Below are positions 2,874-23,551 of a stretch of 49,675 nt of DNA, in pieces. The notes under the pieces were generated by a model. That model had not been told where the DNA came from. It was given only the letters and a program-made list of their open reading frames with translations, and made no database searches. How positions within the stretch are numbered: position 1 is the first letter of the stretch; each line of letters starts with the position of its first letter. Origin of the DNA: a virus; the IMG/VR virus record IMGVR_UViG_3300021470_000001, positions 1 through 49,675 of that record. One strand, 5' to 3'. The position numbers and the translations under genes were made by a program.

Positions 2874-3467
2874 ATGTCCGAGATGTTGCCTGTTGGAAAT
2901 TATAATGCCCAGATCGAAGGGCATGACCTTACCGCACTTGGCGATAAGGGCACACCGTGTGTTGTCTTTGATGTAGTCCTCCGTGATGGTAAGGACTCAG
3001 GTAAACAACATGTTGAGTGCGAAGGTGTTCGTAAAAAGATTCTGATGTGGTTGACTGACAAGGCCTTGCCTTACACAGTTAAAAACATACGCTCACTTGG
3101 GTACACCCAGGACGATATCAAAGGACTTGGTATGGAGCACGAAGAGTCGTCAGGCTTGCTAGGTGTTCAGGTTCGTATCTCTTGTAAGCACGCAGAGGAT
3201 CAGAATGGTGTTGTTAGGGAGCGGCTGGGTATGTTCCCATCCACTAACAATGCGAAGCCTTTAGCTGCGGAAACCATGTCTATATTTGCAAAGCTGTTCA
3301 GGGATGAACAACGCAAACTAACTCAGGAGGAATCTAAAGATGTTCAAGAAGATGATTCAGACGAAGCGTTGGCTCCTACTCCGCCTAAGAAAAATACGGC
3401 GGTCAATCCCACGAAGCAAACTGCTAAAGTAGCTAGGGGAAAAAGTGGATATCAAACGCCTTTCTAA
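2874..3467 (+). CDS. Putative ssDNA-binding protein (DUF669-like)
   Basis: The 197-residue protein starts LPVGNYNAQIEG.D followed by a beta-rich half (VVFDVVL, KKILMWLTDKA, GVQVRISCKHAED), like the DUF669 group of phage single-strand DNA-binding proteins found beside RecT and nucleases. The C-terminal 60 residues are low complexity: first acidic (EESKDVQEDDSDEAL), then Lys/Pro-rich, and the chain ends in a hydrophobic GYQTPF, reminiscent of a partner-binding SSB tail though the tip is not acidic. It sits between the annealase and the primase-helicase, where an SSB would act. The family call is from pattern only. Confidence 0.5.
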   Translation: MSEMLPVGNYNAQIEGHDLTALGDKGTPCVVFDVVLRDGKDSGKQHVECEGVRKKILMWLTDKALPYTVKNIRSLGYTQDDIKGLGMEHEESSGLLGVQVRISCKHAEDQNGVVRERLGMFPSTNNAKPLAAETMSIFAKLFRDEQRKLTQEESKDVQEDDSDEALAPTPPKKNTAVNPTKQTAKVARGKSGYQTPF

Positions 3468-3891
3468 GTTAGTAACCTATATGGAGGGAGATCGCTCTGA
3501 CGGGCGATCTCTAAAAAAGAACATGGCTAAAAGCGGATCAGATAGAGTAGAAGCATTTGGGATCTTTTCGTATGCGTTCACCCACTGGGGTAACCGTATA
3601 AGGAAGGTGCAAGTGGACAGCCTAGATGCTTTTGACCTGCTAATGGCACAGTTCGTTAAAGATGGAAAACAGATAGATAAAACATCTGATTTGTTTTTAG
3701 TTAATGCGGCGGCGTACTGGGCAGCAATCGCAGATGTTGCCCACACACTGTCTTTAACAGCAGAGCACTTGTCTAGAGAATGTAACAAAATTTCAGGTTA
3801 TCAAATTGACATGGGGGATATAGAGGATGTCTTTAATCAACAAAGGAAATGGAACGATAAACACCTTGGAGAAGGTTCTAAACCTACTTGA
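3445..3891 (+). CDS. Hypothetical replication-block protein, 148 aa
   Basis: No family recognised. Mostly helical, Ala-rich in the middle (LVNAAAYWAAIADVAHTLSL) but not a convincing membrane segment because it is interrupted by charged residues. I chose the GTG at 3445, preceded by AGGGGA four bases upstream; an ATG at 3481 with GAGGG-like context downstream of it is an alternative. It overlaps its upstream neighbour by 23 bases and the primase-helicase by 65 bases, so its expression is tied to the replication genes. Confidence 0.6.
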   Translation: MDIKRLSKLVTYMEGDRSDGRSLKKNMAKSGSDRVEAFGIFSYAFTHWGNRIRKVQVDSLDAFDLLMAQFVKDGKQIDKTSDLFLVNAAAYWAAIADVAHTLSLTAEHLSRECNKISGYQIDMGDIEDVFNQQRKWNDKHLGEGSKPT

Positions 3892-5545
3892 GGGAGTGAC
3901 CACCAGCGGTGGTGAATATAAATCGTTGTGCCCCTCTCATGACGACTCTTCACCATCGTTGAGTATTAGAGAGCGTGACGGACAAATACTTCTACACTGT
4001 CACGCTGGCTGTAAGCCAAAAGATATATTGGATGTCTTAAATCTAGAATGGAAAGACTTATTCACAGACCCAGACCTCGATCTGTGGCACGAAGTGTATA
4101 AGGAAATGATTCAGTTGTGCGAACTGTCGTCTAGTGATAGTACCTTGCTTGTTGCAAGAGGACTAAGTGAGGAATGGGTTACTTTAGGCGGGTACCGTTC
4201 CTTATCATGTCCTGCCACTAGACGCAGTGTATTAAAGTTGTTTGAATTGTATGGAGACTCCCTGTTGAGTGTTCCAGGGTTCACACGCAAAGGTGATCAG
4301 CCCATACGAATAAAAGCAACTAAGGGAATATTACTACCTGTGACAGATACCCACATGAGAATCCGTGGGTTCCAGATAGCCACAGGTGGTACTCCCAAGT
4401 ACATTTGGTTCTCAGGTGACGCACAAGCCAAGACTACCTGCCATGTGCCTTGGAGTGCACAAGACCGTGAGAGAGTTAGAATCACGGAAGGTGTCCTGAA
4501 GGCTGACATAGCTTGTTGCGTTGATGAAACGACACTTACTATAGGTGTGCCTGGAACATCTAATTGGGCAACAGCACTACCTGTTCTTAGGTCAAGGCAA
4601 TGCAAGGAAGTGTACATCGCCTTTGACATGGATTGGCAAACTAATGACGCTGTGAAGACTCAGATGATGGAGCTATTCTTTGCCTGCAAGTCTGAAGGGA
4701 TCACCACATTCATAGAAATGTGGGATTCAGCACAGAAGGGCGTTGATGATGCCCTTCTTGCTGGATCGGCTATAACGATACATGCTAGCTTGCCCGGCAA
4801 CACAATTGTTGAAGGTGTTAGGCCTGCTAGCTCTTATAAGACGGTGGCTGTGGATTGGCTGTGGAAGGGTTGGATACCTAAGGGCATGTTATGTGTTCTC
4901 GAAGGTGACCCCGGCCTAGGCAAGAGCACCTTGTGTGCGGACATTGCAATGCGTATTACAACCTGCACGCCGTTTCCCGGAGAGATAGACAAGCCTGTGT
5001 GTGGCTCTGTGTTGTTTCTATCGGCTGAGGATGACCCAGGGCGTATTACAGTGCCTAGGATGCGTGCTGCGGGCGCGAATCTAGACAAGGTCTTCTTCTG
5101 GGATTACCACCCAACATTCCCTGAAAAATTGGCACAATTAGAGGCCATCATTGAACAGATGGGAATAGTCTTGGTAATACTAGATCCGTTCCTAGCCTTC
5201 CTAGACTCTGACATAGACTCTTACAAGGATCAGAACATCAGGCAGGTTCTAACGCCTATCAGCAAGATGGCAGAACGCACAGGGTGTAGTGTTCTTCTGA
5301 TACGCCACCTGAACAAGTCACAGGGTCAGGTAAACAAGATGTACAAGGGCACAGGCAGCATTGCAGTTATAGCTGCTGCTAGAGTTTGCTTGTACATGAT
5401 TCAGGATGAAGACAGCAATGATAAAATTCTAGGTCAGGTTAAAAACAACCTAGCACCTACACAAGCTTCTTGGGCTTTTGAGTTTGAAGAAGGTGAGAAC
5501 TGGCACGACACCCGCCTACATTGGAAAGGACGATCAGAACTATGA
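3827..5545 (+). CDS. DNA primase-helicase (zinc-binding, TOPRIM-like, RecA-like AAA ATPase)
   Basis: A 572-residue bifunctional replication protein. The N-terminus has a CHC2-type zinc site (Cys35, His38, Cys58, Cys62 in CPSH and CHAGC). A TOPRIM-like centre follows, with Glu221 in TEGVLKAD and Asp267/Asp269 in AFDMD, expected to bind metal for primer synthesis. The C-terminal third is a RepA/DnaB-related ATPase: Walker A GDPGLGKS with Lys366 and Walker B VILDP with Asp453, then LIRHLNKS and GTGSIA typical of AAA_25 proteins. It should unwind DNA and lay primers at the fork with the polymerase encoded two genes on. ATG at 3827 has GAGG close upstream. Its stop overlaps the next start (ATGA). 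Confidence 0.85.
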   Translation: MSLINKGNGTINTLEKVLNLLEGVTTSGGEYKSLCPSHDDSSPSLSIRERDGQILLHCHAGCKPKDILDVLNLEWKDLFTDPDLDLWHEVYKEMIQLCELSSSDSTLLVARGLSEEWVTLGGYRSLSCPATRRSVLKLFELYGDSLLSVPGFTRKGDQPIRIKATKGILLPVTDTHMRIRGFQIATGGTPKYIWFSGDAQAKTTCHVPWSAQDRERVRITEGVLKADIACCVDETTLTIGVPGTSNWATALPVLRSRQCKEVYIAFDMDWQTNDAVKTQMMELFFACKSEGITTFIEMWDSAQKGVDDALLAGSAITIHASLPGNTIVEGVRPASSYKTVAVDWLWKGWIPKGMLCVLEGDPGLGKSTLCADIAMRITTCTPFPGEIDKPVCGSVLFLSAEDDPGRITVPRMRAAGANLDKVFFWDYHPTFPEKLAQLEAIIEQMGIVLVILDPFLAFLDSDIDSYKDQNIRQVLTPISKMAERTGCSVLLIRHLNKSQGQVNKMYKGTGSIAVIAAARVCLYMIQDEDSNDKILGQVKNNLAPTQASWAFEFEEGENWHDTRLHWKGRSEL

Positions 5546-5916: not shown

Positions 5917-7993
5917 GTGTGATGGTGCTTTCGGTTTTGACACAGAGACTACAATGATTGAGCCTGGGATGATACCAGAATTAATCGTGCTCACATTTAG
6001 TGACAACAAGCGTAGCTACATTGTGTCACCAGACATGGTTGGTGCTTGGGTTGAAATGATCTACCTGAGCGGGTGCAATATAGTAGCACACAATGTTGCG
6101 TTTGATTACCATGTTGTGTTCGCAGCACTGAAGTATGTTGAAGAGATTCGTATGTGGAAGGCTATGGTCGAACAGAATAAAGTCTGGGATACAATGATTC
6201 TAGATTTCTTAGTCAGGTTAGCTAATGGTGAGGAGGACGGTCCACTAAGGCCTAAAAGCCTTAGTGACCTGTCCGAGCACTACTTGTCAGTTAAGCTGGA
6301 CAAATCTTTACAGACAGAGTGGACTAAGTTTCTAGGACAACCAATGGAGGATATACCTGATGAATACCTTGCTTATGCTCTTAAGGATAGTGCTGTTACT
6401 AGGGAGTTATTCAACGAACTTCACCCTGTTGCTGTGCACATATCCAACCACAACAATTGTCTAATAGATATGCACGGACCACTAACACACCACACACAAG
6501 TTAAGGGTTCTATCGCACTCACAGACTGTAGCAGGGTTGGTATCAAGGTTGATACTGAAGCACAGCAGAACATAGGCATGGAAATAAAACTACAGATAAA
6601 TGATATCGTACAATGGTTAGATAAGAATTATCCAGCGTTGTTCAAGAGAGACAAGCGTAAGAAATTCTTAGGCAAGCTTATGTACAACTACACAACAGGA
6701 GTTCCTTCCGTAGATAGCAAAGCACTTCGTGTGTACCTGTTGAACATTGCAGCGGAGCTAAAGCTTAGAGACAAGAGCATACCTAAGACGGACAAGAGTG
6801 GTGAGATAACCACTAGTGCGGACTACTGGTCAGAGCACAAGCATGTGTTCATCCAGCAGTGGCAAGACATGACTACAAAGGCAAAGCTATTAAACTTTGT
6901 TGAGCAGATAAAGACAGAGCGTGTGAACCCTAGGTACCAAGCACTTGTCCGCACAGGAAGGACAAGTTGTAGCAAACCTAACCTTCAGCAAATGCCAAAG
7001 GCACAGTGGTTCAGGAAGCTATTCGTACCTAGCAAGGGCACTAAGTTTATCATAGCTGACTATAATGCTGTGGAGCTTAGGTGTTTGGGCGCGATATGCA
7101 AGAGCAGGTTTGGATTCTCACAGCTAGCACGCACATTCTATGAGGGTATTGATCCGCACGCATACACAGCGTCCAGCCTATCAAATATACCCTTTGCAGA
7201 GTTCATGAGTCTTAAGAAATCAGACCCAGAAAAGTTTAAGAAGTTTAGACAATCAGCTAAGGCTGTAAACTTTGGTGTGCCCGGTGGTCTTGGTGCCAAG
7301 TCACTAATGGAATACGCATCAGCATCATACGGTGTGTCTATGACCCTGGATGAGGCCAAGGAGTGGAAGAACAAACTAGTGACAGAGGTGTACCCAGAGT
7401 TGTCTAGGTATTTGTTTCAGGATGTGCTTGGTGCACTGTGCTTCAACCTACAGTGTGGTGCTGATGAGGTGTGTGATGCGTTCAACCTGAGATCCGCTGG
7501 CGTGTACGCATTCAGCCCAATACAAGATGTAGTGTCAGGCAACATGCGTAGTAGGAAGGGCACAGGTTACACAGGTGCTTTCAGGCGGCATGTGTGGAAC
7601 GCACTATCTAAGATAAACAAGGATAGCTCGCTAGAGATGCCACTGAGATCCCAGCGAGGTAGCCCTAGTCTAAGACGCAGAATATTCGGCAACACTGTGG
7701 TTACACTCACAGGGCGTGTGCGTGGTGCTGCTGAATACACAGAGTCGTGCAACACACAATTCCAGGGGTTGGCTTCAGATGGTGCCAAGCTTGCATTGTA
7801 CGCCGTGTCACAGTTGTACCCTGTGGTTGCCTTTGTGCACGATGAATTAGTTGTAGAGGTGCCTGACGATGCACCTGAGACACACGGTAAGGTGATAGAA
7901 TCTTTAATGAATACTAGCATGGACAAAGTGCTTAATGGTTTTGTAAGATCAGAAGTTGAGTGGGTTGTTTCTGACACATGGAGTAAGACATGA
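5870..7993 (+). CDS. Family A DNA polymerase with 3'-5' exonuclease
   Basis: At 707 residues it has the size and layout of T7-type polymerases. Exonuclease motifs: DTET (Asp24, Glu26), AHNVAFD (Asp79) and YALKD (Asp173). Polymerase motif A is ADYNAVELR (Asp397), motif B is RQSAKAVNFG (Arg460, Lys464), motif C is HDE (657-659). All catalytic residues expected for both activities are present. There is no 5'-3' exonuclease domain. AGAGGAG at 5856-5862 supports the ATG at 5870. It is the replicative enzyme paired with the primase-helicase upstream; its stop overlaps the next start (ATGA). Confidence 0.92.
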   Translation: MGILLKTNMWKGQHLKCDGAFGFDTETTMIEPGMIPELIVLTFSDNKRSYIVSPDMVGAWVEMIYLSGCNIVAHNVAFDYHVVFAALKYVEEIRMWKAMVEQNKVWDTMILDFLVRLANGEEDGPLRPKSLSDLSEHYLSVKLDKSLQTEWTKFLGQPMEDIPDEYLAYALKDSAVTRELFNELHPVAVHISNHNNCLIDMHGPLTHHTQVKGSIALTDCSRVGIKVDTEAQQNIGMEIKLQINDIVQWLDKNYPALFKRDKRKKFLGKLMYNYTTGVPSVDSKALRVYLLNIAAELKLRDKSIPKTDKSGEITTSADYWSEHKHVFIQQWQDMTTKAKLLNFVEQIKTERVNPRYQALVRTGRTSCSKPNLQQMPKAQWFRKLFVPSKGTKFIIADYNAVELRCLGAICKSRFGFSQLARTFYEGIDPHAYTASSLSNIPFAEFMSLKKSDPEKFKKFRQSAKAVNFGVPGGLGAKSLMEYASASYGVSMTLDEAKEWKNKLVTEVYPELSRYLFQDVLGALCFNLQCGADEVCDAFNLRSAGVYAFSPIQDVVSGNMRSRKGTGYTGAFRRHVWNALSKINKDSSLEMPLRSQRGSPSLRRRIFGNTVVTLTGRVRGAAEYTESCNTQFQGLASDGAKLALYAVSQLYPVVAFVHDELVVEVPDDAPETHGKVIESLMNTSMDKVLNGFVRSEVEWVVSDTWSKT

Positions 7994-8559
7994 AATATGA
8001 AGTAAAAGACAGTGGTGAGCGTGAAGAGTTTCCAAGTGGTTCTGTGCGTGACTCTCAGTTTGCTAAGGGCAGGTATGACCTGTTACCTTTTTCAGCACTA
8101 GAGAGGATTGCCATACTCACAGAGTTGGGTGCTATGAAATACGGTGCACGCAATTGGGAGAAGGGTCAACCAATTGCACGCTATATCAATAGTGCTCTAC
8201 GCCACATAATTAAATATGCAATGGGCTATCGTGATGAGGATCACCTAGCTGCTTGTTGCTGGAATGTAATGGCAGCAATGTGGACTGAGGAAGAAGTTTT
8301 ATTAAACAATTTACCCGCAGAACTAGGAGAAGGTTATGTTATCAGATCACACAGGGGAAGACAATTCAGGCCTGAAGAACAAGATGTCACAGCACAAGAT
8401 AATAAAAAAGGAGAGGAGGTTAGAAGCGATAGGGATGCGAAAACAGGGAATGACATATGCAGAGATTGGTCGTGCAATGGGTGTGACAAGGCAAGCTGCG
8501 TACAGCTATGTCGAGAGAGAATTCAAAAGCTTGATGAAGGAGGGCAGTGTAGTAGCTGA
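7990..8559 (+). CDS. dATP/dGTP diphosphohydrolase-like protein (DUF5664/MazZ type) with odd C-terminal tail
   Basis: Residues about 27-102 carry the pattern of the phage dATP/dGTP diphosphohydrolase N-terminal family: GRYDLLP, ELGAMKYGARNWEKG, SALRHIIKY..G and DHLAACCWN, an all-alpha fold that cleaves dNTPs to dNMP and pyrophosphate. In some phages relatives feed the 2-aminoadenine pathway with PurZ, but no PurZ is present here. The last ~75 residues lie entirely over the next gene in another frame and are Cys-rich (five Cys in CRDWSCNGCDKASCVQLC), so they are probably an overprinted extension. The start overlaps the polymerase stop by four bases. Confidence 0.7.
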   Translation: MKYEVKDSGEREEFPSGSVRDSQFAKGRYDLLPFSALERIAILTELGAMKYGARNWEKGQPIARYINSALRHIIKYAMGYRDEDHLAACCWNVMAAMWTEEEVLLNNLPAELGEGYVIRSHRGRQFRPEEQDVTAQDNKKGEEVRSDRDAKTGNDICRDWSCNGCDKASCVQLCRERIQKLDEGGQCSS

Positions 8560-8866
8560 GAAAGCACTTAGCCTAACACTAGCTAGGTTCGATGAGCTAC
8601 TAAAGGTATACTATAAGGAGGCAACCGCTGGTAACAGAGAATCACTTCAGTCTGTGTTATCTATCATGGATAGACAGATTAAGATATTAGGACTTGAGGC
8701 ACCTAAGAAGTCTGAATCTACTGTCACATACCAGACGCTATCAGACCAAGAGCTAATACAACAGGCAGGTATGTGGGGTATCAGTATCCCAATGGACCAG
8801 CTGACTGTGCAACCTGAATCCCTGAATGATGGAAACTTTCAAAGTCATCCAGATTTATTGCAATAA
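8336..8866 (+). CDS. Probable small terminase subunit (HTH DNA-binding)
   Basis: The 176-residue protein has an N-terminal helix-turn-helix (about residues 28-62: KQGMTYAEIGRAMGVTRQAAYSYV) and a helical middle (ALSLTLARFDELLKVYYKEA..ESLQSVLSIMDRQIKILGL) as in many phage small terminases that recognise the packaging site and assemble as rings. The ATG at 8336 has AGGAGAAGG directly upstream; ATG 8384 is a fallback. The 224-base overlap with the upstream gene is unusual. It is 2.1 kb away from the large terminase, with four genes and two transcription units in between, so a transcription-factor role cannot be excluded. Confidence 0.55.
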   Translation: MLSDHTGEDNSGLKNKMSQHKIIKKERRLEAIGMRKQGMTYAEIGRAMGVTRQAAYSYVEREFKSLMKEGSVVAEKALSLTLARFDELLKVYYKEATAGNRESLQSVLSIMDRQIKILGLEAPKKSESTVTYQTLSDQELIQQAGMWGISIPMDQLTVQPESLNDGNFQSHPDLLQ

Positions 8867-10478: not shown

Positions 10479-10522
10479 ACTCAATTACTAATTTAAAAGA
10501 TATTAGTAGTTGAGTTTTTTTG
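10479..10522 (+). terminator. Rho-independent terminator after the second GNAT gene
   Basis: A 14-bp stem with one wobble pair (10479-10492 with 10502-10515) and a 9-base loop is followed by a T7 run. An additional smaller hairpin (TTAGTTCA with TGAACTAA, 10446-10476) precedes it. Confidence 0.85.
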
Positions 10523-10531
10523 TTAATTAAC

Positions 10532-10561
10532 TTGACACATAAAACAAGCACAGACTATAAT
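10532..10561 (+). promoter_or_regulatory. Perfect-consensus sigma70 promoter
   Basis: TTGACA (10532-10537), an 18-bp spacer and TATAAT (10556-10561) match both consensus boxes in full, the only such pair I found. It points towards the large terminase. The predicted start, near 10568, lies at the foot of a stable hairpin, and the transcript would run antisense through the small gene at 10630-10890 before reaching the terminase. Confidence 0.75.
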
Positions 10562-10570
10562 CGCATATAG

Positions 10571-10614
10571 AGAGATTTACTGCCAGAGCGCGAGCGTCAG
10601 GCAGGTAAATCTCT
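10571..10614 (+). other. Stable hairpin at the 5' end of the transcript from the consensus promoter
   Basis: AGAGATTTAC plus TGCC (10571-10584) pairs with GGCA, a bulged G, and GTAAATCTCT (10600-10614): 14 base pairs with one bulge and a 15-base GC-rich loop. No T-run follows on the plus strand, so it is more likely a leader stem or the start of a small RNA than a terminator. On the minus strand it lies just after the gene at 10630-10890 and may help to end or stabilise that transcript. Confidence 0.55.
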
Positions 10615-10629
10615 TATATACAAATTGCA

Positions 10630-10931: not shown

Positions 10932-10959
10932 ATTATATAACCTCACTGGGAATAAACAA
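10932..10959 (-). promoter_or_regulatory. Promoter for the minus-strand 86-aa gene
   Basis: On the minus strand, TTGTTT (10959-10954), a 16-bp spacer and TATAAT (10937-10932) precede the gene by about 40 bases. The -35 box touches the terminase start codon, so the two units are packed head to head. Confidence 0.55.
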
Positions 10960-12533
10960 TGTCAGCAGCAATGACCAGATTAGAATTAGAGGAGAAGTTA
11001 AAACAGGCTTACACTATTGCGGAGTTAGCATCTGCACGCAGTATTAAAGGATATTTAGACTCTGTAATTATTGACTCACGCCCTGAGCCTAGGCGTTTCG
11101 CACATGTCGCACGACCCTGGCAATGGAAGCGTACAACATACATGATGGAACCTATTGAGGCGTTGTGTGGTTTACGCCCTGAGTTTAAAGGTCCTCGTAA
11201 CACATGGGAAACACTTCCGCGCGGACACGACAAGACAACAGGACTCGCACGCATATGCAATTGGGTACTAGCGTTCAGTCGTAAACCAATTGAGATAGTT
11301 GCAGCAGCGGCAGATTTCGATCAAGCAGCACTACTTGTTGAGTCTATGGCAGCAGAGGCTAGATTGAATCCTTGGTTAGCTAAACGCATTGTGTATGGTG
11401 CTAAGAGAATCAAAGGACCGGGGGGAATACTAAAGATTCTAACTGCGGATAGTGCAACATCATTTGGTCTTAGAGCAGATTTAGTGGTTTGCGATGAAGT
11501 GACACATTGGAAGAAGAGAGACTTGTGGGATACACTATGGTCAGGTAGGCAGAAGAGACCTGGATCTGTGTTTGTTGTTATCACAAACGCTGGCACACTT
11601 GGTTCGTGGCAACATGAGATTGTAGAACAAGTTAAGACTGATGATAGCTGGACAGTCTACGAGGCTAATGGACAATTAGACTCTTGGATGGATGCAGAAG
11701 CTATCCAGCGTGATCGAGCACTATTACCTAATGGTGTCGCACGCCGTGTGTTGGATAATGTGTGGATTGACCCAGCAGAAGAGTCAGGTTATCTAACAAG
11801 AGCAGAGATAAATTTAGGTACACAGCTAGGTGCAACAAAAAACCTTGTTTATACGACATCCGGTCTGCATGGCATGGAGTATGTTGCCGCAATTGATTAC
11901 GGAGCCAGAAGAGATAGGACTTCCATGTGTGTTATGCACCGTGATTTGGATGGTGTTTATGTGCTTGACAGAATGGACATTATCCAGGGCACGCCACTTG
12001 CACCAGTACCAATTGCTACTGTTGATTCATGGATAGAGAATGTAGCTAGTAACTTCAACAATCCCACTATAATTATAGACCCTTGGCAGATGGAAGCCAC
12101 AGTTCAAAAGTATGAACACAGACTGCGTTGCACTAGATTTGATGGGCGTTCAGGTAAGTCTAATTATGAGATGGCGGAGTTGCTAAGGAGCCTATTAGTC
12201 AACAACCAATTGGCGTGGTATTCTGACCCTGCGCCACTACAAGTTGGTAAGAGAAAAGAGACACTTGTTGATGAGATGGCAGGCCTAATAATCAAGACAA
12301 CAGGTAGCTCGTACAGATTCGACCACACGAATGGCCTGCACGATGACCGCACAGTATCAATGGGCATGGCGCTAGTCACACTAGCTGGTCAACAACAGGT
12401 AGGCCCGTGGGTAGCACCTGGTAGCCTGCTCAAACCTGCACCCACAGATTATTGCCTGCGCACACCTAAGTTCAATGGTATGTTTGGCTTAGGTCTAAAA
12501 CCGGATAGTGCAGGTCGCAATATATTTGGTTAG
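10959..12533 (+). CDS. terL: Terminase large subunit
   Basis: This 524-residue packaging motor has the ATPase and nuclease of phage large terminases. ATPase: an atypical Walker A, LPRGHDKTT with Lys92 and Thr93 (RGxxKT form), and Walker B LVVCDE with Asp179/Glu180. Nuclease: three acidic sites in order, AIDYG (Asp313), IIDPWQ (Asp374) and HDDR (Asp462/463), an RNase H-like set for cutting concatemers. It should work with the small subunit and the portal (16326). The ribosome site is weak (GGGA seven bases upstream). The last bases already hold GTGCAGG/CCTGCAC motifs that continue into the non-coding region behind it. Confidence 0.9.
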   Translation: MSAAMTRLELEEKLKQAYTIAELASARSIKGYLDSVIIDSRPEPRRFAHVARPWQWKRTTYMMEPIEALCGLRPEFKGPRNTWETLPRGHDKTTGLARICNWVLAFSRKPIEIVAAAADFDQAALLVESMAAEARLNPWLAKRIVYGAKRIKGPGGILKILTADSATSFGLRADLVVCDEVTHWKKRDLWDTLWSGRQKRPGSVFVVITNAGTLGSWQHEIVEQVKTDDSWTVYEANGQLDSWMDAEAIQRDRALLPNGVARRVLDNVWIDPAEESGYLTRAEINLGTQLGATKNLVYTTSGLHGMEYVAAIDYGARRDRTSMCVMHRDLDGVYVLDRMDIIQGTPLAPVPIATVDSWIENVASNFNNPTIIIDPWQMEATVQKYEHRLRCTRFDGRSGKSNYEMAELLRSLLVNNQLAWYSDPAPLQVGKRKETLVDEMAGLIIKTTGSSYRFDHTNGLHDDRTVSMGMALVTLAGQQQVGPWVAPGSLLKPAPTDYCLRTPKFNGMFGLGLKPDSAGRNIFG

Positions 12534-12743
12534 CCTGCACTTACCAGATTAAGAGAGTGGGAATGTGCGTAATAGGTTAGCCTGCACATTCCATGTTACA
12601 AACTGTGGGCATCGCTGCGCGATAGCCTGCATTGTGTACTATAAAATTGTAGCGGCTCCGCGCCGCCTCCATGCAAAAACATGTAGTGCACTTCGTGCAC
12701 ATCAGTTGTAGTCTGTAGTTGCAGGTCGCTACGCTCCCTGCAC
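12508..12743. repeat. Cluster of short palindromes and CCTGCAC/GTGCAGG motifs downstream of terL
   Basis: Dyads here include GTGCAGG...CCTGCAC (12508-12540, across the terL stop), GGAATGTGC with GCACATTCC (12560-12592), ATCGC-TGC-GCGAT (12611-12623), GCGGC-TCCGC-GCCGC (12652-12666), GTGCAC-TTC-GTGCAC (12686-12700) and TGCAGG...CCCTGCA (12720-12742). The CCTGCA(C) motif occurs about ten times in both orientations between 12508 and 12954. No open reading frame here is convincing. Confidence 0.75.
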
Positions 12744-13070
12744 AAAAGCGGCGAATTAAAGATATAAATAGTCTTAATCTATTTTTAGTTGCAGGCTATC
12801 ACCAAACGCTATAAAAATAGGGGTTTCAGCACACCGCGCCGCTGCCTGCACATTAGAGATAAGAGATGTGCGAATATATTTTATTGCCTGCATCGATGTG
12901 CACCAAACGCTATGTTTATAGGTGTTTCGTGCAGGCTTCTTTTCTTGCCTGCACAATAGCGGCGAATAACGGATATAACTACTCTCAATATATTAAGACT
13001 ACACATGTGCGTTATTATTATTTCGCATGTTCACCAAAGCCTATGTTTATAGGGGTTTCATGACATACAT
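12738..13070. repeat. Three tandem composite repeats, each with a conserved hairpin
   Basis: Units begin near 12738, 12844 and 12947. Each starts with CCTGCACA, continues with an AT-rich stretch (units 1 and 3 share GCGGCGAAT), and ends in a related 30-base element starting CACCAAA (12800-12832, 12901-12935, 13032-13063). Each element folds as a stem around CTAT and ATAGG with a four-base loop, flanked by AAA and TTT; the middle pair varies. Unit 3 has extra bases before its hairpin. The stretch from 12534 to 13137 lacks a supportable gene. Confidence 0.8.
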
Positions 13071-13137
13071 TAGAGACACGCTTAGTGCACTATTACCTAT
13101 TGCGGATAAGCGGAGTGTAAATATATTTATAGTGCGT

Positions 13138-13163
13138 AACGCCGAGTACGGTGTTTTTTTTTT
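13138..13163 (+). terminator. Rho-independent terminator of the terL transcript
   Basis: AACGCCG (13138-13144) pairs with CGGTGTT (13149-13155, one wobble) around a four-base loop; ten T (13154-13163) follow. It implies that the repeat region at 12534-13137 is transcribed as the terL 3' tail. Confidence 0.8.
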
Positions 13164-13179
13164 CGATTATTTTGTGTTA

Positions 13180-13205
13180 GGGGGGGGCACCACCAGTGGG
13201 GGGGG
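13180..13205. other. Two G8 tracts between convergent terminators
   Basis: Two runs of eight G (13180-13187 and 13198-13205) are separated by ten bases, CACCACCAGT. They lie in the 60-bp gap between the plus-strand terminator and the minus-strand terminator. No gene overlaps them. Confidence 0.8.
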
Positions 13206-13223
13206 TACCTAAAATTTACGGAA

Positions 13224-13252
13224 TAAAAAAATGACACTATCTTCACAGTATC
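13224..13252 (-). terminator. Rho-independent terminator of the minus-strand operon
   Basis: Read on the minus strand, GATACTGT-GAAG-ATAGTGTC (13252-13233, two wobble pairs) is followed by A and a T-run of seven (13231-13225). It ends the methyltransferase operon 25 bases after its last stop codon. Confidence 0.85.
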
Positions 13253-13277
13253 TACATATTCAAATTCAGGTAGCTAC

Positions 13278-13478
13278 TCACTTAGGCTGGAGAACAAAGT
13301 TGTTCAGGCACCAACAGAAAGCTTTCATAAACCAAAAGAATATAATAAACCCCACAGGTAGTGAGATTGCAAATAGTACTAGCCTGCCCAATACTGTTAA
13401 AAGAGAGTCGTTGTCTCCTATATCACAATTAGTAACCATGATGTGGTGTGTAATCTTTTCGTCCATTGGATTCTTCAT
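13278..13478 (-). CDS. Small membrane protein, 66 aa
   Basis: One clear membrane segment of about 25 residues in the middle (LVLFAISLPVGFIIFFWF), with a polar N-terminal half and a short basic C-terminal end, gives a single-span protein. AAGGA lies six bases before the ATG, and the start overlaps the stop of the preceding 43-aa gene (ATGA), which favours this frame over the plus-strand frame covering the same bases. It is the last gene of the minus-strand operon, directly before a terminator. Function unknown; a holin-like or exclusion role is only a guess. Confidence 0.6.
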   Translation of the reverse strand: MKNPMDEKITHHIMVTNCDIGDNDSLLTVLGRLVLFAISLPVGFIIFFWFMKAFCWCLNNFVLQPK

Positions 13479-13606
13479 TTTGCGTCCTTAGAAAGTTCGA
13501 GTATAAATTTGTACATCACAAGTGCGTCATTCATTTGTATAAATGGTTTGGAGGCCTTGAACGCAGTTTCGATGCGTTCAAGGACTTCTAGTAATTCAGG
13601 AGTCAT
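13475..13606 (-). CDS. Small hypothetical protein, 43 aa
   Basis: A short helical protein (MTPELLEVLERIETAFKA at its start) with amphipathic character and no membrane segment. It starts one base after the Gp88-like stop, has AAGGGA as ribosome site inside that gene's end, and its stop overlaps the next start by four bases. This tight packing on both sides is the main evidence that it is translated. Function unknown. Confidence 0.55.
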   Translation of the reverse strand: MTPELLEVLERIETAFKASKPFIQMNDALVMYKFILELSKDAK

Positions 13607-13607
13607 G

Positions 13608-14300
13608 TTATCCCTTAAATCTTTTAGATTCTCTTTTAGACTGTTGCTGGCCAAATGTTAAACCATCTTGTATTTTAATAAACTGAGGAATCCTATTAGA
13701 GACAATCCCAATCTTATTTGTTGGCAGGGCGAAGCAAAGTAAATCACTAGCACCTTGATTCATGTAACCAGCGTCTAAAAGTGCTTGTTCTGTAGGGAAA
13801 ACATCACAGTGTCTGTCGTTCTCCTTGTCGATTAGGTGATCTTCCCTGCCACCCATAGAAAACAGGTACCTGAAGTTGTGCGGTATCTCACGCTGGTATC
13901 TTTTAAAACGGGAAACTTCTTTTGTGTAGGCATAAAATGTAACCTGCTCATGAAGTATAGCTATATCAATCCACGACTGTAGGTAGTCGTCTGAGAAGAA
14001 ATCACCTGCATCGTGTATCCTCAGGTATTTCAAATTTCTCTTCTTGCGTATCTCAGCACTCATGTCAGTAAACCACTCAGCCTGTTTAAAAATAAAGTGC
14101 TCCAAGTTAGCAAGGTGTTTAGCCTTCACCACTGGGAAAAGGTAAGTACCATTGCGTGCGTAGCACATCTTCGCACACACACCTGCATTAGGGCAGCAGT
14201 TGAACCAGCTACCATCTGACATTTTTACATTCCATGCAGGTATAGTCCAATTCCAGATTCCATCCTTACGCAGTTCAGAATTCTGTGTTAGTAACTTCAT
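13608..14300 (-). CDS. Gp88-like phage protein (Cys-rich, function unknown)
   Basis: The 230-residue protein has the pattern of the phage Gp88 family: NWTIPAWNVK near the start, then C-P-N-A-G-V-C-A-K-M-C-Y-A-R-N-G-T-Y (about residues 36-53), KAKHLANLE, and LRIHDAGDFFSDDYLQSWIDIA. Cysteines 35, 36, 42 and 46 in the first part resemble a metal site, though it does not fit the radical-SAM CxxxCxxC spacing exactly. Biochemical role unknown in the family to my knowledge. The start overlaps the methyltransferase stop by four bases, and two tiny genes follow directly, so all four belong to one minus-strand operon. Confidence 0.65.
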   Translation of the reverse strand: MKLLTQNSELRKDGIWNWTIPAWNVKMSDGSWFNCCPNAGVCAKMCYARNGTYLFPVVKAKHLANLEHFIFKQAEWFTDMSAEIRKKRNLKYLRIHDAGDFFSDDYLQSWIDIAILHEQVTFYAYTKEVSRFKRYQREIPHNFRYLFSMGGREDHLIDKENDRHCDVFPTEQALLDAGYMNQGASDLLCFALPTNKIGIVSNRIPQFIKIQDGLTFGQQQSKRESKRFKG

Positions 14301-15883: not shown

Positions 15884-16333
15884 ATGAATGATTCTAATTT
15901 ACAATTTGTACGAAGGAGTGATGGCTCTATCGCTATTACACACGGCATTAATGTAAATGACAAAAGCCAGCCATTCACTGACCAAATACTAAGTGGTGAA
16001 AAAACTGTTGAGACTAGAAATTCAAAATCTCTTCACCCTTATGTTGGTAGACAAATGGGAATTATTAGAACAGGTAAAGGTAAGGCACATTTAGTTGGGT
16101 ACGCAACTGTAGGTGAACCTGTTCACTACGAAGACGAGAAAAGTTTTGATTTGGATTTTGAAAAGCACAGAGTTGGTAAAGATTCTAAACACTACATAGG
16201 TAAAGCTAAACCTAAAAAGGGAAAACCCGCACCAACAACAAAATGGGGATACCCATTTAACAATGTCTCTTCGATTACGCCAGTTCCAGTTACATCAAGA
16301 GGCAATGTGGCGAGAAAAATAAATAATGGCTAA
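15884..16333 (+). CDS. ASCH/PUA-like domain protein
   Basis: The 149-residue protein has the ASCH pattern from about residue 25: SQPFTDQILSGEKTVETRN, LHPYVGRQMGIIRTGKGKAHLVGYATVGEPVHY, that is, the K-TVE-R strand and the beta-barrel core seen in RNA-binding PUA-like domains. A long Lys-rich C-terminal part (KAKPKKGKPAPTTKW) follows. ASCH proteins are thought to bind RNA or modified nucleosides, and some have amidohydrolase activity; which applies here is unknown. It starts the late plus-strand block, behind a structured leader, and overlaps the portal gene by 8 bases. Confidence 0.6.
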   Translation: MNDSNLQFVRRSDGSIAITHGINVNDKSQPFTDQILSGEKTVETRNSKSLHPYVGRQMGIIRTGKGKAHLVGYATVGEPVHYEDEKSFDLDFEKHRVGKDSKHYIGKAKPKKGKPAPTTKWGYPFNNVSSITPVPVTSRGNVARKINNG

Positions 16334-17798
16334 GGAAGATGTAATACCAGACCCGTTCGCACAGATACCACAAGAGCGTGGGTACGACTTTCCAGAAGCA
16401 GAAATAAAAGAAGGTCGTGTGCCTGGGGATGGCGGTCAACCACTACCACACTTCATGACATTCAGTCAAGTTGTGAATTGGGCATCACGCACATACCGTT
16501 ACACATTTGACGAAGCACTAAGACACAGTGCAAAAAACACACTTGCGATGCGGCGTGACCCTGTGATCATGGAGTGCATACGGTCAAGGCAAATGCCAAC
16601 CGCACAATTAGGGTGGCACCTAGAGCCACAGAACCCAGAAGACACAGCACAGACAGAGGCAGCTAAAGAGTTAACGGATATCATTAAACAGACTCCTAGA
16701 ATACAGCAACTACTGATGCACCTCTTAGAGGCAATGTTCTATGGTAGGTACGCCGTCCAGCTAAACTACGAGTGGGATTACTCAACAAAGAAACGCCGTA
16801 TGTTAGTTAAGGATTTTAAACCAATCAACGGTGACAAACTTGTGTTCAGGTATTCAGGACAGGCTGGAATACTAGTGCACGCAACTTTTGACGGTTCATG
16901 GGCTATTACGGATCGTGGAAGGGCACATTTCTTCACGCCTGACGAGCGTGAGCAAATAATCATACACAAGCACGAACCAGAAGACGCTGACTTCTATGAA
17001 GGCGAGCTAGCTGGTGGTATTCATGGTGTAGGTATCCGCAGTAAGATTTACTGGCTGTGGTATCTAAGGTCACAAGTTTTGACCTTTCTCATGGATTACC
17101 TTGAACGAATTGGTGCAGGTGGACTCACTGTGTATTACTTCGAGGCTGGTAACCCACAATCGTTAGCTGAAGTTAAGCAATGTGCTGAAGAACAGATGCG
17201 TAACAACACAATCCTATTCCCAAGGTACCGTGACAACTCAACTGCGGGTCCGGGAATAGAAAGAATTGACCCATCACCCGCTGGTGCACAGCTATTGTAC
17301 GACCTTATTACGGCCTATTTTGATCAACAGATCAGAAGGTTCATAAAGGGTGCTGATGACAATGAAATGACCTCAGGAGAGGCACAGGAGATCGGCGACA
17401 CGCACTCTAGGATGGTGCGATACGATGCGATGAACCTACAAGACACACTGACGGAAGAACTTGTTGCGACTCTTCAAAAGTACAACTTCCCCGGACTACC
17501 ACAAATACGCTGGGTGTTCGATATTGATAAACCTAATGCAGGTGAAACACTCACCGCAGCACAAGCGTTTTATCAGATGGGCGGTACTTTAGATGAAGAT
17601 GAACTTAGGGCTATTTTAGGCTTGAGCCGACCACAACCCGGTCATGCGATATTAGCCCAAAACATGCCGCTAAACCCGTCCACAATGGGTAGCCAGCCAA
17701 CAGGTGTGCCTCAACAAGGGCAACCAGGGCCTATGCCTGAACAAGGTGCAGAAGCGGCTCAACCTACACCGGACGGGGCACAAGGTGCGGGGGCATAA
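16326..17798 (+). CDS. Portal protein (Mu gp29/DUF935-like)
   Basis: At 490 residues it has the size of Mu-type portals. Recognisable stretches are ALAMRRDPVIMECIRSRQ near the N-terminus, LEAMFYGRYAVQLNYEW, a FKPINGDKLVFRYSG strand region, GGIHGVGIRSKIYWLWYLRSQVLTFLMDYLERIGAGGLTVYYF (about 235-277), and a C-terminal ADDNEMTSGEAQEIGDTHSRMVRYDAMNLQDTL helix, as in DUF935 proteins. The last 45 residues are Pro/Gln-rich. It should form the ring at the capsid vertex that the terminase docks to. Ends in a stable hairpin around the stop codon. Confidence 0.75.
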   Translation: MAKEDVIPDPFAQIPQERGYDFPEAEIKEGRVPGDGGQPLPHFMTFSQVVNWASRTYRYTFDEALRHSAKNTLAMRRDPVIMECIRSRQMPTAQLGWHLEPQNPEDTAQTEAAKELTDIIKQTPRIQQLLMHLLEAMFYGRYAVQLNYEWDYSTKKRRMLVKDFKPINGDKLVFRYSGQAGILVHATFDGSWAITDRGRAHFFTPDEREQIIIHKHEPEDADFYEGELAGGIHGVGIRSKIYWLWYLRSQVLTFLMDYLERIGAGGLTVYYFEAGNPQSLAEVKQCAEEQMRNNTILFPRYRDNSTAGPGIERIDPSPAGAQLLYDLITAYFDQQIRRFIKGADDNEMTSGEAQEIGDTHSRMVRYDAMNLQDTLTEELVATLQKYNFPGLPQIRWVFDIDKPNAGETLTAAQAFYQMGGTLDEDELRAILGLSRPQPGHAILAQNMPLNPSTMGSQPTGVPQQGQPGPMPEQGAEAAQPTPDGAQGAGA

Positions 17799-21600: not shown

Positions 21601-23551
21601 GGGCTTAGGCACCATGACAAATAAAAAAGGTTCTCTTATAGACACGCCACCTAAAGAATTAGCTGGTGCGTTTGATTTAATAAATCATTACACAGCCGAG
21701 CAATTTAAATTAAGCAACAAGCAAGTTCAAGCTATGGGTTGGTACCATTGGAAAAATTTTTGCACTCGTATGGGTGTAAAAACAGCGGGTATGGAAAACT
21801 ACACAAGTGCTTCTAAAAAGATTTATGAAAAGACATTAGGACCAGCAGCAAACAAAAACATAATGCCTGAAATACCAAAAGGAGATGCTGATGCATATGC
21901 AAAGACCAAATCAACAGAGCAAACCTCTAACGGAAAAGGAGTGCCACCACATATCTCAGCAGCTAATCTCGCAAGGGCTAATGCCGTCCTTGGAATCGAT
22001 TATACAGACACTTATAAAGAGCCGACCCGGTTGGCAGGAAGTCCTGGCAACCCACTTAAAAACTCAAAGGGAAAAAGAGGCACAAGACTACCCGGAAGAA
22101 ACGGAAGACGACTAAAATTTGCACAGTTCACACAAGCACCGGGTGGTATGACAGGAACACCTGTTGCGACTAGAACTAACCAGCCGTTCTCCAACGCTGT
22201 GGCTAAATCCCCAGGTGGTAAGAACCTAGCACAAGGTGCACTTGGTAACCAGATCAATGCCAAGGGTGGTGTAGAAACCACCGCACAGAATGCGGTTGGT
22301 GATTGGCCTAATGGTTCTGAAGAGTCAATCGTGCACACGGCGCCACAAGGCACCGATCCAGCTAGATTAAAATACCTAGCAGCTTGGCACGGTATCTCAG
22401 GGCAGAAGAAATCTGTACTTGTGTTCCACCCGAATTCAAAAGGTCCAGATAGTTTGTACCACATGACACACCCTTCAACGGACATGGGTGAAGTGCGAGA
22501 TTCCTTAATAGCGGCGGGTATAAACTACAAGACGCTGCTACCTGGAAAGACAAACACTAAAGTATTAGTGTACGACCCAAACAGGACAATGAGAAACACC
22601 GTAGATCAATATGCTACAAATAATAACTTAAATGTAGAAGAAAACATTGGACAAGGTGAGATTGTAGGACATAATGGTGATTGGAACAGCGCTGGTGCTC
22701 TACCGAAATCCAGACAAGCTTACACAAACATCATAGGTGAATATGAGCAGAATAGTAACCAAGCCGGGCCTTCCAACAATACTAGTGGGGCACCCACCAA
22801 TGGCACAGGCACCAGCACAGGGCAAGCCCAGCAACTCTCCCGCACAAACAAGGCCAAAATAAAATTTGACCGTAGTCGTAGGGTGTTAGAAGGTTTCCTG
22901 AGACAACACAACACACCTAACAAAGAGCTACCACCTGTTGGGGATTTACTAAGCCAAGACCTACAGAACATAAAGCCAGAGCATCTATCAAAGTATCAGC
23001 AGTTAATTCCAGACGCTAAGTGGTCAGACATAGAAGGTGCTGTAACCTCACTGAAAAAAGACCCTAGCTTATATGACGACATGACGAGTGAATCTAACAG
23101 GCGAGAGATGTACTGCAAGGAACACGCAAGGACAGTACTTCAAAGCAGTGGTTTAAAGAAGCTAATTGATAGTCTTAGAGTGCAAAATTTAATACCTGAA
23201 CACGCACAGCACTTGATTGAAGACGCTAAGGATGGAGATTACTTTTCCTTAGAAGCCATTAGCTCAGAACTACAACACAGCGTACCTTCACTGCGGGCTT
23301 TCTCAAAAGCCGCAGAGAAGGAATATAACAAAGCTGGAAAGGCATGGGATAAAATGCGAACAGTACAACCACAGAAGTTTGCTAAGAAATCCGCACACGC
23401 AGCAGATCAGTATCGAGCAGGTGCACACGGTATTACATTCCGTGGTAGGAACTACAACGGTGGACAATTTGCACCACAGAATGACGGTGTTAAAAGGTTT
23501 GAAAAAGACTCCAACCTAACACACATGATTAAAAAACTGCGAGGAGCTTAA
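18644..23551 (+). CDS. Giant putative virion protein, 1635 aa
   Basis: I do not recognise the family. The N-terminal 70 residues are strongly basic. Residues about 90-1080 are a long, Lys-rich helical region with no obvious repeats or enzyme motif. Residues about 1120-1210 are low complexity (Gly/Asn/Arg/Pro). A compact-looking domain at about 1240-1370 (LKYLAAWHGISGQKKSVLVF, VLVYDPN) and a helical C-terminus follow. Base use differs: up to about 21870 the gene is very A-rich (many AAA, ATA, TTA codons), while the rest looks like the neighbouring head genes, as if two sources were joined. Its place before the head protease suggests an injected or head-internal protein. ATG 18644 or 18650 may be the start. 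Confidence 0.7.
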   Translation: MIMQTRFSKFIDKVVAFKKRAYTNRISFSAKVDKVNKVATPSKKATAVTKPKPDNGITKAEHATHEDAANAHLNNDPSKEIREATNFTPYGKAAPPLGQGTVNQFLQTKGYRDGEYEKLRDSRKGQKDHLLSILNNTHYFFGARVKKEDQAKVDKANTGLNDEQIEHINGLDHGLNNSQLHALLYLDSHDILKDAPPVISDRYQQSRYFDMMREEIARKQGASGQPMLDEDGKPMHDSKGNALLNPEFKLDKKSLGSIHARVRKSILPELEGEEDEYASDKKLGAKKLTEAQKMERFPPIMRGLIKGAAAFVGLLKNKRPKGGISEPMVPEGENGQFTNEQLLTLDKELNHSGGYSPSVNANFTRMWHSVMHQEVWDLIDGTELGKDKQGKEYSPSEKKALYHSQGARGVLEKLSQEKISQIPEGTDPKTAKLMKAKIEDDRMRAVVALGLTFATDHTAQALASEGVAKTSSGDPKDGGFVILPSGEWKQYKDEAAKNQIVKENNAGQDSGALWYDDDMAQTDANIVGLLNFLNKDNQKSDKNPDGYVNIPKIENTVPPTDRGVEQHIMLTNFKALMAPTSFGMQPGANLGVAVKMYKQALIEKAKDPEGKDKSVFAYISTKQDESTDKDGVEHIQHENRLYGRAKALSNSMQVTEPSLFVHINALYADPDNKDNIKKAIYLQKEWMRLEDNRGIIYQDEEKPKLRPKQKKPKEGEPEQEKPKLGKMIIRGAHSSTDSLQKIIEAARDSSFKVPTKIAEDDLDITVKGALKKPSLTALGRNAKLDDKLQKMNDWADPLKTESPDGIYSKEYQKKMREDVKNMGFSTEDLQKDWTTRGGSINPMLRFIKNYTAAFGKDGDKQLAAFLTGSHSAKFMAQEWAKYSLHTDENGRNSYQVEIEQAKKLPEPQRENTIKSIKEDYADFLRKTEKKFISAAPAGLKNSITSGQIGVSGSYIFGPKGGNFHQDLSYQGGYPTKDLWYTRWMLWGLGTMTNKKGSLIDTPPKELAGAFDLINHYTAEQFKLSNKQVQAMGWYHWKNFCTRMGVKTAGMENYTSASKKIYEKTLGPAANKNIMPEIPKGDADAYAKTKSTEQTSNGKGVPPHISAANLARANAVLGIDYTDTYKEPTRLAGSPGNPLKNSKGKRGTRLPGRNGRRLKFAQFTQAPGGMTGTPVATRTNQPFSNAVAKSPGGKNLAQGALGNQINAKGGVETTAQNAVGDWPNGSEESIVHTAPQGTDPARLKYLAAWHGISGQKKSVLVFHPNSKGPDSLYHMTHPSTDMGEVRDSLIAAGINYKTLLPGKTNTKVLVYDPNRTMRNTVDQYATNNNLNVEENIGQGEIVGHNGDWNSAGALPKSRQAYTNIIGEYEQNSNQAGPSNNTSGAPTNGTGTSTGQAQQLSRTNKAKIKFDRSRRVLEGFLRQHNTPNKELPPVGDLLSQDLQNIKPEHLSKYQQLIPDAKWSDIEGAVTSLKKDPSLYDDMTSESNRREMYCKEHARTVLQSSGLKKLIDSLRVQNLIPEHAQHLIEDAKDGDYFSLEAISSELQHSVPSLRAFSKAAEKEYNKAGKAWDKMRTVQPQKFAKKSAHAADQYRAGAHGITFRGRNYNGGQFAPQNDGVKRFEKDSNLTHMIKKLRGA

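Follow-up and report, generated by a model that had tools for sequence, protein, structure and literature searches.

An uncharacterised cis-acting locus with iterated dyads, conserved behind the terminase large-subunit gene of a phage group

The DNA analysed here, hereafter the window, is the 49,675-nucleotide stretch at positions 1-49,675 of the IMG/VR virus record IMGVR_UViG_3300021470_000001, a record classed as linear. Left of its terminase gene terL lie genes for a YqaJ-type recombinase, a RecT-like protein, a primase-helicase and a DNA polymerase (one weaker PHROG match of the latter is named DNA polymerase I), and the portal gene is found at 16326-17798. Genes for a GP88-family protein and a DNA methyltransferase occupy the minus strand between terL and portal. 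The locus described below (Table 1) separates the rightward terL from these leftward accessory genes, within the longest gap among the open reading frames (ORFs) taken as genes (12534-13277, 744 nt).

Table 1. Coordinates of terL and of the features mapped behind it; positions are those of the window
Feature	Position	Strand	Remarks
terL, terminase large subunit	10959-12533	+	PHROG phrog_9, E 1.5e-29; locus starts at the terL stop codon
GCCTGC linkers and GC-rich triloop hairpins (12611-12623, 12652-12666, 12686-12700)	12534-12700		
TGCAGG-TCGCTACGCTC-CCTGCA inverted repeat	12720-12742		
Box GCGAATTAAAGATATAAATAGTCTTAATCTATT, first copy	12751-12783	+	12754, inside it, starts the region's most AT-rich 40 bases
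Dyad copy 1	12801-12827	+	Loop AAAA
ACATTAGAGA box running into AATATATT	12850-12881	+	
Dyad copy 2	12902-12928	+	Loop GTTT in the window; AAAT in L002, L003, L004 and L017
Box GCGAATAACGGATATAACTACTCTCAATATATT, second copy	12962-12994	+	Conserved in clade C
Dyad copy 3	13033-13059	+	Aligns with the single copy of clade C, 25/27 bases
ACATTAGAGAC..CTTAGTGCA box 3' of the dyad	13067-13097	+	Conserved in clades B and C
Terminator-like stem around core CGAGTACGG (13143-13151)	13138-13155	+	Stem and T run
Two runs of eight G (13180-13187, 13198-13205)	13180-13205	+	
TACCTAAAATTTAC box after the G runs	13206-13219	+	

An earlier description made from the letters of the window (the sequence-only reading) had placed three tandem units at 12738, 12844 and 12947, and we recovered them: CCTGCACA, which starts the three units, occurs at 12737, 12845 and 12948, at most 1 nt from each claimed start. 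The AT-rich part ascribed to each unit was likewise found to repeat (GCGAATWAMSGATATAAMTASTCT at 12751 and 12962). Three 27-base imperfect dyads follow the pattern ACCAAA[GC]{2}CTAT-nnnn-ATAGG[GT]GTTTC in the window, their halves out of register by 1 nt, with GATATAA boxes preceding two of them and ATTAGAGA boxes coming after two. The best 27-base repeat of the region is identical at 24 of 27 bases, against a maximum of 20 in 100 dinucleotide shuffles. A fourth copy is absent from the window, where the next best match carries 5 substitutions.

Related loci were drawn from the viral collection by terL (17), by terL alignment (17) and by portal alignment (23), the records overlapping to a large extent. 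Clade A (the window, L002, L003, L004, L011 and L017) has three dyad copies, clade B (L005 and L006-L010) four, the first of them close downstream of terL, and clade C (L031, L070, which equals L078 in the compared stretch, and L082) a single one. Clade D (L012-L014, identical at the locus) has no dyad, only two matches with 5 substitutions, and the boxes of the unit are likewise absent from it; GC-rich hairpins and GCCTGC linkers are present. The dyad is therefore found in the same place after terL in three of the four clades with readable DNA there, and the conservation of the hairpins in relatives, whose lack would have counted against the sequence-only reading, extends to clades A, B and C and stops short of clade D. 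The absence from clade D indicates that the dyad is not indispensable.

The unit of clade C aligned with window positions 12965-13093 at scores of 84 (L070) and 93 (L082), whereas 200 shuffles gave at most 45 and 38, respectively. When the dyads were masked, the clade C boxes scored 49 against a maximum of 41, aligning then with the neighbouring units at 12754-12885. Between clades A and B, noncoding islands of high identity (93% at 12871-12910, 90% at 12951-12990 and 92% at 13071-13110) are separated by poorer parts, such as 43% at 12641-12680. Four-fold sites of terL are identical at 66% between clades A and B, 39% between A and C (L082) and 44% between A and D; drift that left so few of these sites unchanged would not have kept the dyad shared by clades A and C nearly intact (Table 1). 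The locus is real and is kept by selection on position, sequence and arrangement.

Three ORFs of at least 60 aa overlap the region and are open in some close relatives. The ORF at 12866-13063 has two stops in L005 and two in L010, that at 12774-12956 has one stop in L017, and for that at 13027-13212 only the first 27 residues match in one piece in L005 and L010. Because all three break in relatives, protein coding was rejected and the earlier description of the region as gene-free stands; the stretch is a cis-acting DNA locus, not a gene.

Upstream of the units, five unrelated dyads had been claimed. Three perfect hairpins and the TGCAGG...CCTGCA pair were confirmed among these; the number of perfect hairpins in the window region (5 vs 3.5 +- 1.6 in 200 shuffles) is not above chance. 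Corresponding counts were 12 vs 5.5 +- 1.9 in clade D (shuffle maximum 10), 8 vs 3.7 +- 1.8 in clade B (maximum 9) and 6 vs 2.4 +- 1.3 in clade C (maximum 6). Counted on both strands, the GCCTGC motif occurs seven times in the window region, whereas 500 shuffles gave 0.45 on average and 3 at most; with 500 shuffles each, there were 7 in clade B (maximum 4), 11 in clade D (maximum 6) and none in L070 of clade C. Positions 12578-12691 align with clade D, the stems differing and the pairing being kept, and the alignment that matches the hairpins at 12611 and 12652 to hairpins of clade D scores 48 (shuffle maximum 38), a comparison of few sequences. Pairing maintained whilst the stems change between clades A and D is more readily reconciled with a folded strand than with a site on duplex DNA.

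Downstream of the units, the plus-strand terminator placed at 13138 by the sequence-only reading was found as a stem at that position, the only plus-strand one in 12300-13700; minus-strand stems lie at 12667-12651, 12700-12686 and 13368-13348. In the window, the region may plausibly be transcribed together with terL as far as 13138, but the stem is not conserved in relatives. The core within the stem, CGAGTACGG, is found nowhere else in the window and is common to the clades covering it (TGAGTACGG in L082). The two G runs beyond it are the window's only runs of at least seven G, with single runs of six elsewhere, and paired runs of 6-10 G occur in the clades covering the element. Run lengths and spacers are 8/CACCACCAGT/8 and 9/CACCACCAGT/8 in clade A, 8/CACCCAC/8 and 10/ACCCGA/8 in clade B, 7/ACCACA/7 and 6/AACCGAA/6 in clade C, 7/ACCCGGA/7 in clade D, 8/ACCCGT/8 in L068 and 8/TACCGAA/10 in the further relative L135. 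The core sequence and the paired G runs, not the terminator stem, are what the relatives keep.

A search for GAGTACGG with a pair of G runs 20-50 nt after it returned 13 stretches, all on records of this group. One search with the G-run element gave 19 stretches, five of which (L086-L090) had no window-protein match, and another gave 32, of which 13 were known and 19 new; among the new ones, L135 proved to be a relative, with a portal at 81%, whereas the window-protein set has no counterpart in the other 18. Elements of the type GGGGGGGACCC-n3-7-GGGGGGGTCCC were also seen in L136, L138, L139, L141, L144, L148, L149, L151, L152 and L153, none with a window-protein match; four of the phages with such elements sit on contigs of more than 300 kb, and one representative folds into a longer hairpin.

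Scanned strictly for the dyad, the viral collection gave 11 stretches, all on this group's records, and a relaxed scan placed 14 of 15 in the group, the other (L085) lacking any window-protein match. Four matches in the bacterial genome collection were not convincing, three lying in apparently one gene (two were ORF-checked) and one being a lone match; the phage collection gave one weak match (E 0.7) and the plasmid collection none. A mobile palindromic repeat was rejected, as the window held no further copy and the genome collection showed no convincing dispersal. Searching bacterial genomes with the portal revealed no relative, and a literature search found no paper on the locus or the phage group, which is not proof of absence. 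The terL protein had no match in 50,697 phage records (tblastn, E 1e-5), and the present map is therefore a first one of the probable place of a main cis-acting control in the group. Compact markers for these phages are the dyad, the CGAGTACGG core and the G-run pair.

Most dyad copies read CACCAAA-[GC,CG,CC]-CTAT-nnnn-ATAGG-[G,T]-GTTT-[C,G]. All 15 distinct copies have the same inner pairs, AAA/TTT and CTAT/ATAG, and were gathered with a pattern that fixes the inner-pair bases; a second search allowing up to 5 substitutions in 11 sequences returned every plus-strand copy in clades A, B and C with an unchanged core, and mirror images of known copies on the minus strand. That search found no degenerate copy, the few matches with 4-5 substitutions in L005, L070 and L013 looking like chance. 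The mismatch is C.C in 11 of the 15 distinct copies and G.G in one, with a C-G pair in the three clade C copies, and a single pair of 15 (outer, G-C to U-A) is changed on both sides, compared with a shuffle mean of 2.4. No covariation measure of the dyads exceeds shuffles. Invariant inner pairs without covariation above shuffles argue against a structured RNA and for a sequence-specific DNA site; the dyads behave like a recognised sequence, and the locus looks more like a protein-docking DNA site than a structured RNA.

Iterated, invariant dyads in the longest gene gap, beside a conserved unique element, fit a loading site for a phage protein on DNA. The sequence-only reading had offered a replication origin or packaging site as one of its two inferences, and this is the one that we prefer: we tentatively regard the locus as one that acts in cis in replication or packaging and can be compared to SPP1 oriR, a reading that falls somewhat short of even odds. 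A phage DNA-binding protein, either a replication initiator or a small terminase subunit, would bind the dyads, and opening, stalling or cutting of the DNA may take place at the neighbouring boxes and the G-run element. The number of dyads, one to four among clades A-C, is variable as for iterated protein sites. Of the two functions, replication is slightly the more probable, neither being likely by itself. Among the scanned proteins no initiator was recognised, and no initiator, small terminase subunit or dyad-binding protein was identified with certainty. Candidates for binding the dyads are a helix-turn-helix protein encoded at 8336-8866, the products of 2874-3467 and 3445-3891, which have no assigned function, and the primase-helicase (3827-5545). 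The 1-nt register offset of the dyad halves would be unusual in the site of a simple dimer on duplex DNA.

For replication, tandem sequence-specific repeats in a non-coding stretch resemble iteron-type origins, with three units here and 1-4 copies in relatives. In SPP1 (PMC6316719), oriR has direct repeats and an AT-rich element and lies in a long intergenic space, within a segment of accessory genes inserted among the late genes. The setting here is of the same kind, with repeats accompanied by an AT-rich part, a long intergenic space and accessory genes interrupting late genes; unlike oriR, the present locus comes with no gp38-type initiator that we could find, its repeats are imperfect dyads, and only a short box is AT-rich. 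The region has 57% A+T overall, about the genome level. Its best 40 bases reach 82.5% A+T, with only 5 window start positions higher, whereas over 60, 100 and 150 bases 312, 848 and 2356 start positions are higher, the best 100 bases of the region having 69%. The A+T evidence for an origin is thus mixed, a short box being extreme and longer stretches ordinary. The GC-skew check suggested for an origin gave no signal, for skew shows no switch of its own at the locus and follows gene direction. On the origin side, then, the preferred reading keeps one short AT-rich box and has no skew signal.

For packaging, the R sites in cosB of phage lambda are iterated protein sites of a packaging region. 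In SPP1 (PMC6316719), iterated protein sites at pac adjoin the cleavage region near the terminase genes. The SPP1 pac model is an alternative here because the terminase is adjacent. Like SPP1 pac and lambda cosB, our locus has iterated sites near a terminase gene; unlike them, it comes after terL, not at a small-subunit gene, and one relative closes to a circle. In that relative (L005, record G005) the ends overlap exactly over 127 bases and the break falls at window positions 17334/17460, so the genome maps as a circle with the locus internal. A second record, G006, was considered as circular and rejected: its ends map to 48620 and 48718, yet have no exact overlap. Among the 64 contig ends of 32 group records (the window, G001-G030 and L135), part of which were mapped, seven (L003, L004, L082, L061, L066, L068 and L135) are no more than about 75 nt away from the G runs, but do not line up flush, and T/G homopolymers can explain them; another 40 lie elsewhere or were not placeable. 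As contig ends pile up at homopolymers, packaging ends are indistinguishable from assembly breaks in these records. A possible likeness between the SPP1 pac decamer and CTATTGCGG at 13097 was dropped: the decamer appeared in none of the papers listed by a literature search, and by eye only clade A has CTATTGCGG. The dyad, core and G runs offer exact targets at which a replication start, a packaging start or a transcription end could be sought.

Of the alternatives, the one that survives best, although we consider it unlikely, is that the palindromes have no phage role, the dyads and GC hairpins multiplying and being remodelled through errors of replication, for instance template switches from one arm to the other. 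Loops differ as four-base blocks at orthologous places with the arms nearly unchanged (clade A copy 1 AAAA vs clade B copy 2 GTTT; clade A copy 3 GTTT vs clade B copy 4 AAAA; window copy 2 GTTT vs L002 AAAT), and template switching at short inverted repeats is known to render the two arms alike and to invert the spacer (PMC8604942). Stretches of about 47 bases in L003 and about 51 in L005 are missing, and by eye these are flanked by TAGCCTGCA copies in the window and L010. The observed loops are nevertheless one base off exact inversions, and the unit with its boxes is conserved at one place in clades A, B and C with no copy elsewhere in the window. Such an origin would also leave the dyads to drift, which is at odds with the 25 of 27 bases kept at 39% four-fold identity.

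A structured RNA, the other inference of the sequence-only reading, would have the repeats act as RNA modules, either in the 3' portion of the terL message or in a transcript of the opposite strand. The stretch does fold better than 20 shuffles per strand (z -4.1 on the plus and -4.9 on the minus strand), but inverted repeats tend to give similar z values on both strands. A C-A cell next to the mismatch in 7 of the 15 copies can pair only on the minus strand, as G-U, and the differing stems of the clade A and D hairpins at aligned places, together with the one outer dyad pair changed on both sides, point the same way. Against these stand the lack of dyad covariation above shuffles, promoter-like sites at chance level in 12300-13700 (5 vs 3.8 +- 2.3) and the absence of any gathering-level Rfam match in the window, L054, L051, L070 or L082, the two matches in 12450-13300 lying far below the cut-off. 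With the inner pairs invariant and the strands folding alike, repeated RNA modules are improbable, slightly more so than palindromes with no role. The locus is a real, conserved, uncharacterised cis-acting locus for which the RNA reading is disfavoured.

Marginally less probable again is a transcription boundary, in which the locus would separate convergent transcription, its hairpins protecting 3' ends with stems for both strands and the G-run element acting as a block. terL and the genes from 13608 on do converge on the locus, terminator-like stems are in excess in 12300-13700 (4 vs 1.2 +- 1.2 in shuffles), and a quadruplex or a GC hairpin is predicted at the plus-strand G runs. The stem and T run at 13138 resemble an intrinsic terminator, but the plus-strand stem, which has 7 pairs in the window and 5 in L002, is reduced to 3 in L003 and L017 and 2 in L010, L005, L070, L082, L013 and L031, eight relatives that keep the GAGTACGG core; unlike the case of an intrinsic terminator, it is the core sequence that relatives keep. 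Iterated, sequence-invariant dyads, moreover, are not needed for a boundary.

Very improbable in our estimation is an origin resembling the human mitochondrial CSBII, which terminates transcripts and anchors the R-loops from which replication is primed (PMC6317783). Transcription coming from terL would run through the hairpin units into the G runs, a quadruplex-anchored R-loop would form, its RNA would prime the phage polymerase and the dyads would load the primase-helicase. As in CSBII, the G runs lie on the non-template strand for terL-side transcription and a quadruplex is predicted in most clades, being the preferred plus-strand fold in A, B, L005, L031 and L135. The likeness is one of G runs only, and the prediction gave no preferred quadruplex in L070 (runs of six) or in clade D, which prefers a GC hairpin, so that a CSBII-like three-layer quadruplex in every member was rejected. 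A CRISPR repeat and an integron attC site were considered and, by eye, dropped on the features of such elements.

Elsewhere in the window, a consensus sigma-70 promoter (TTGACA-N18-TATAAT) with a long hairpin directly after it was observed at 10532-10616. Clades B, C and D also have a promoter-like site and hairpin before terL, with differing stem sequences and, in D, a T run; in view of this recurrence, the sequence at 10532-10616 is likely to give a small RNA or else to serve as a leader for terL transcription. The element had no Rfam family at the cut-off, and its position is comparable to that of put-type antitermination RNA (PMC9378689). Just before this promoter, a terminator-like hairpin with seven T was seen by eye at 10480-10521, and would close the replication operon. 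Upstream of portal, clade D (L013-type records) and the more distant L135 have a TTGACA promoter-like site and two hairpins, the second with a GGCCGGG-type stem.

Several observations concern the remaining genes. A dATP/dGTP diphosphohydrolase-like domain (PF18909, E 1.8e-19) at 7990-8559 adjoins the DNA polymerase gene and could, we presume, point to altered nucleotides in the phage DNA. The structural module (18644-49453) is very divergent: seven of its proteins (starts at 23551, 25165, 28102, 30958, 33894, 35251 and 46664) had no PHROGs family at 0.001, ten (18644, 23551, 25165, 28102, 41116, 42300, 43745, 46664, 47380 and 48514) had no Pfam family at 0.01, and only the protein starting at 38012 matched, through collagen repeats. 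Finally, positions 13261-13493, about 233 bases in the window, correspond to about 10 in L002 and L017, and hold a 66-aa minus-strand ORF with one hydrophobic stretch by eye.
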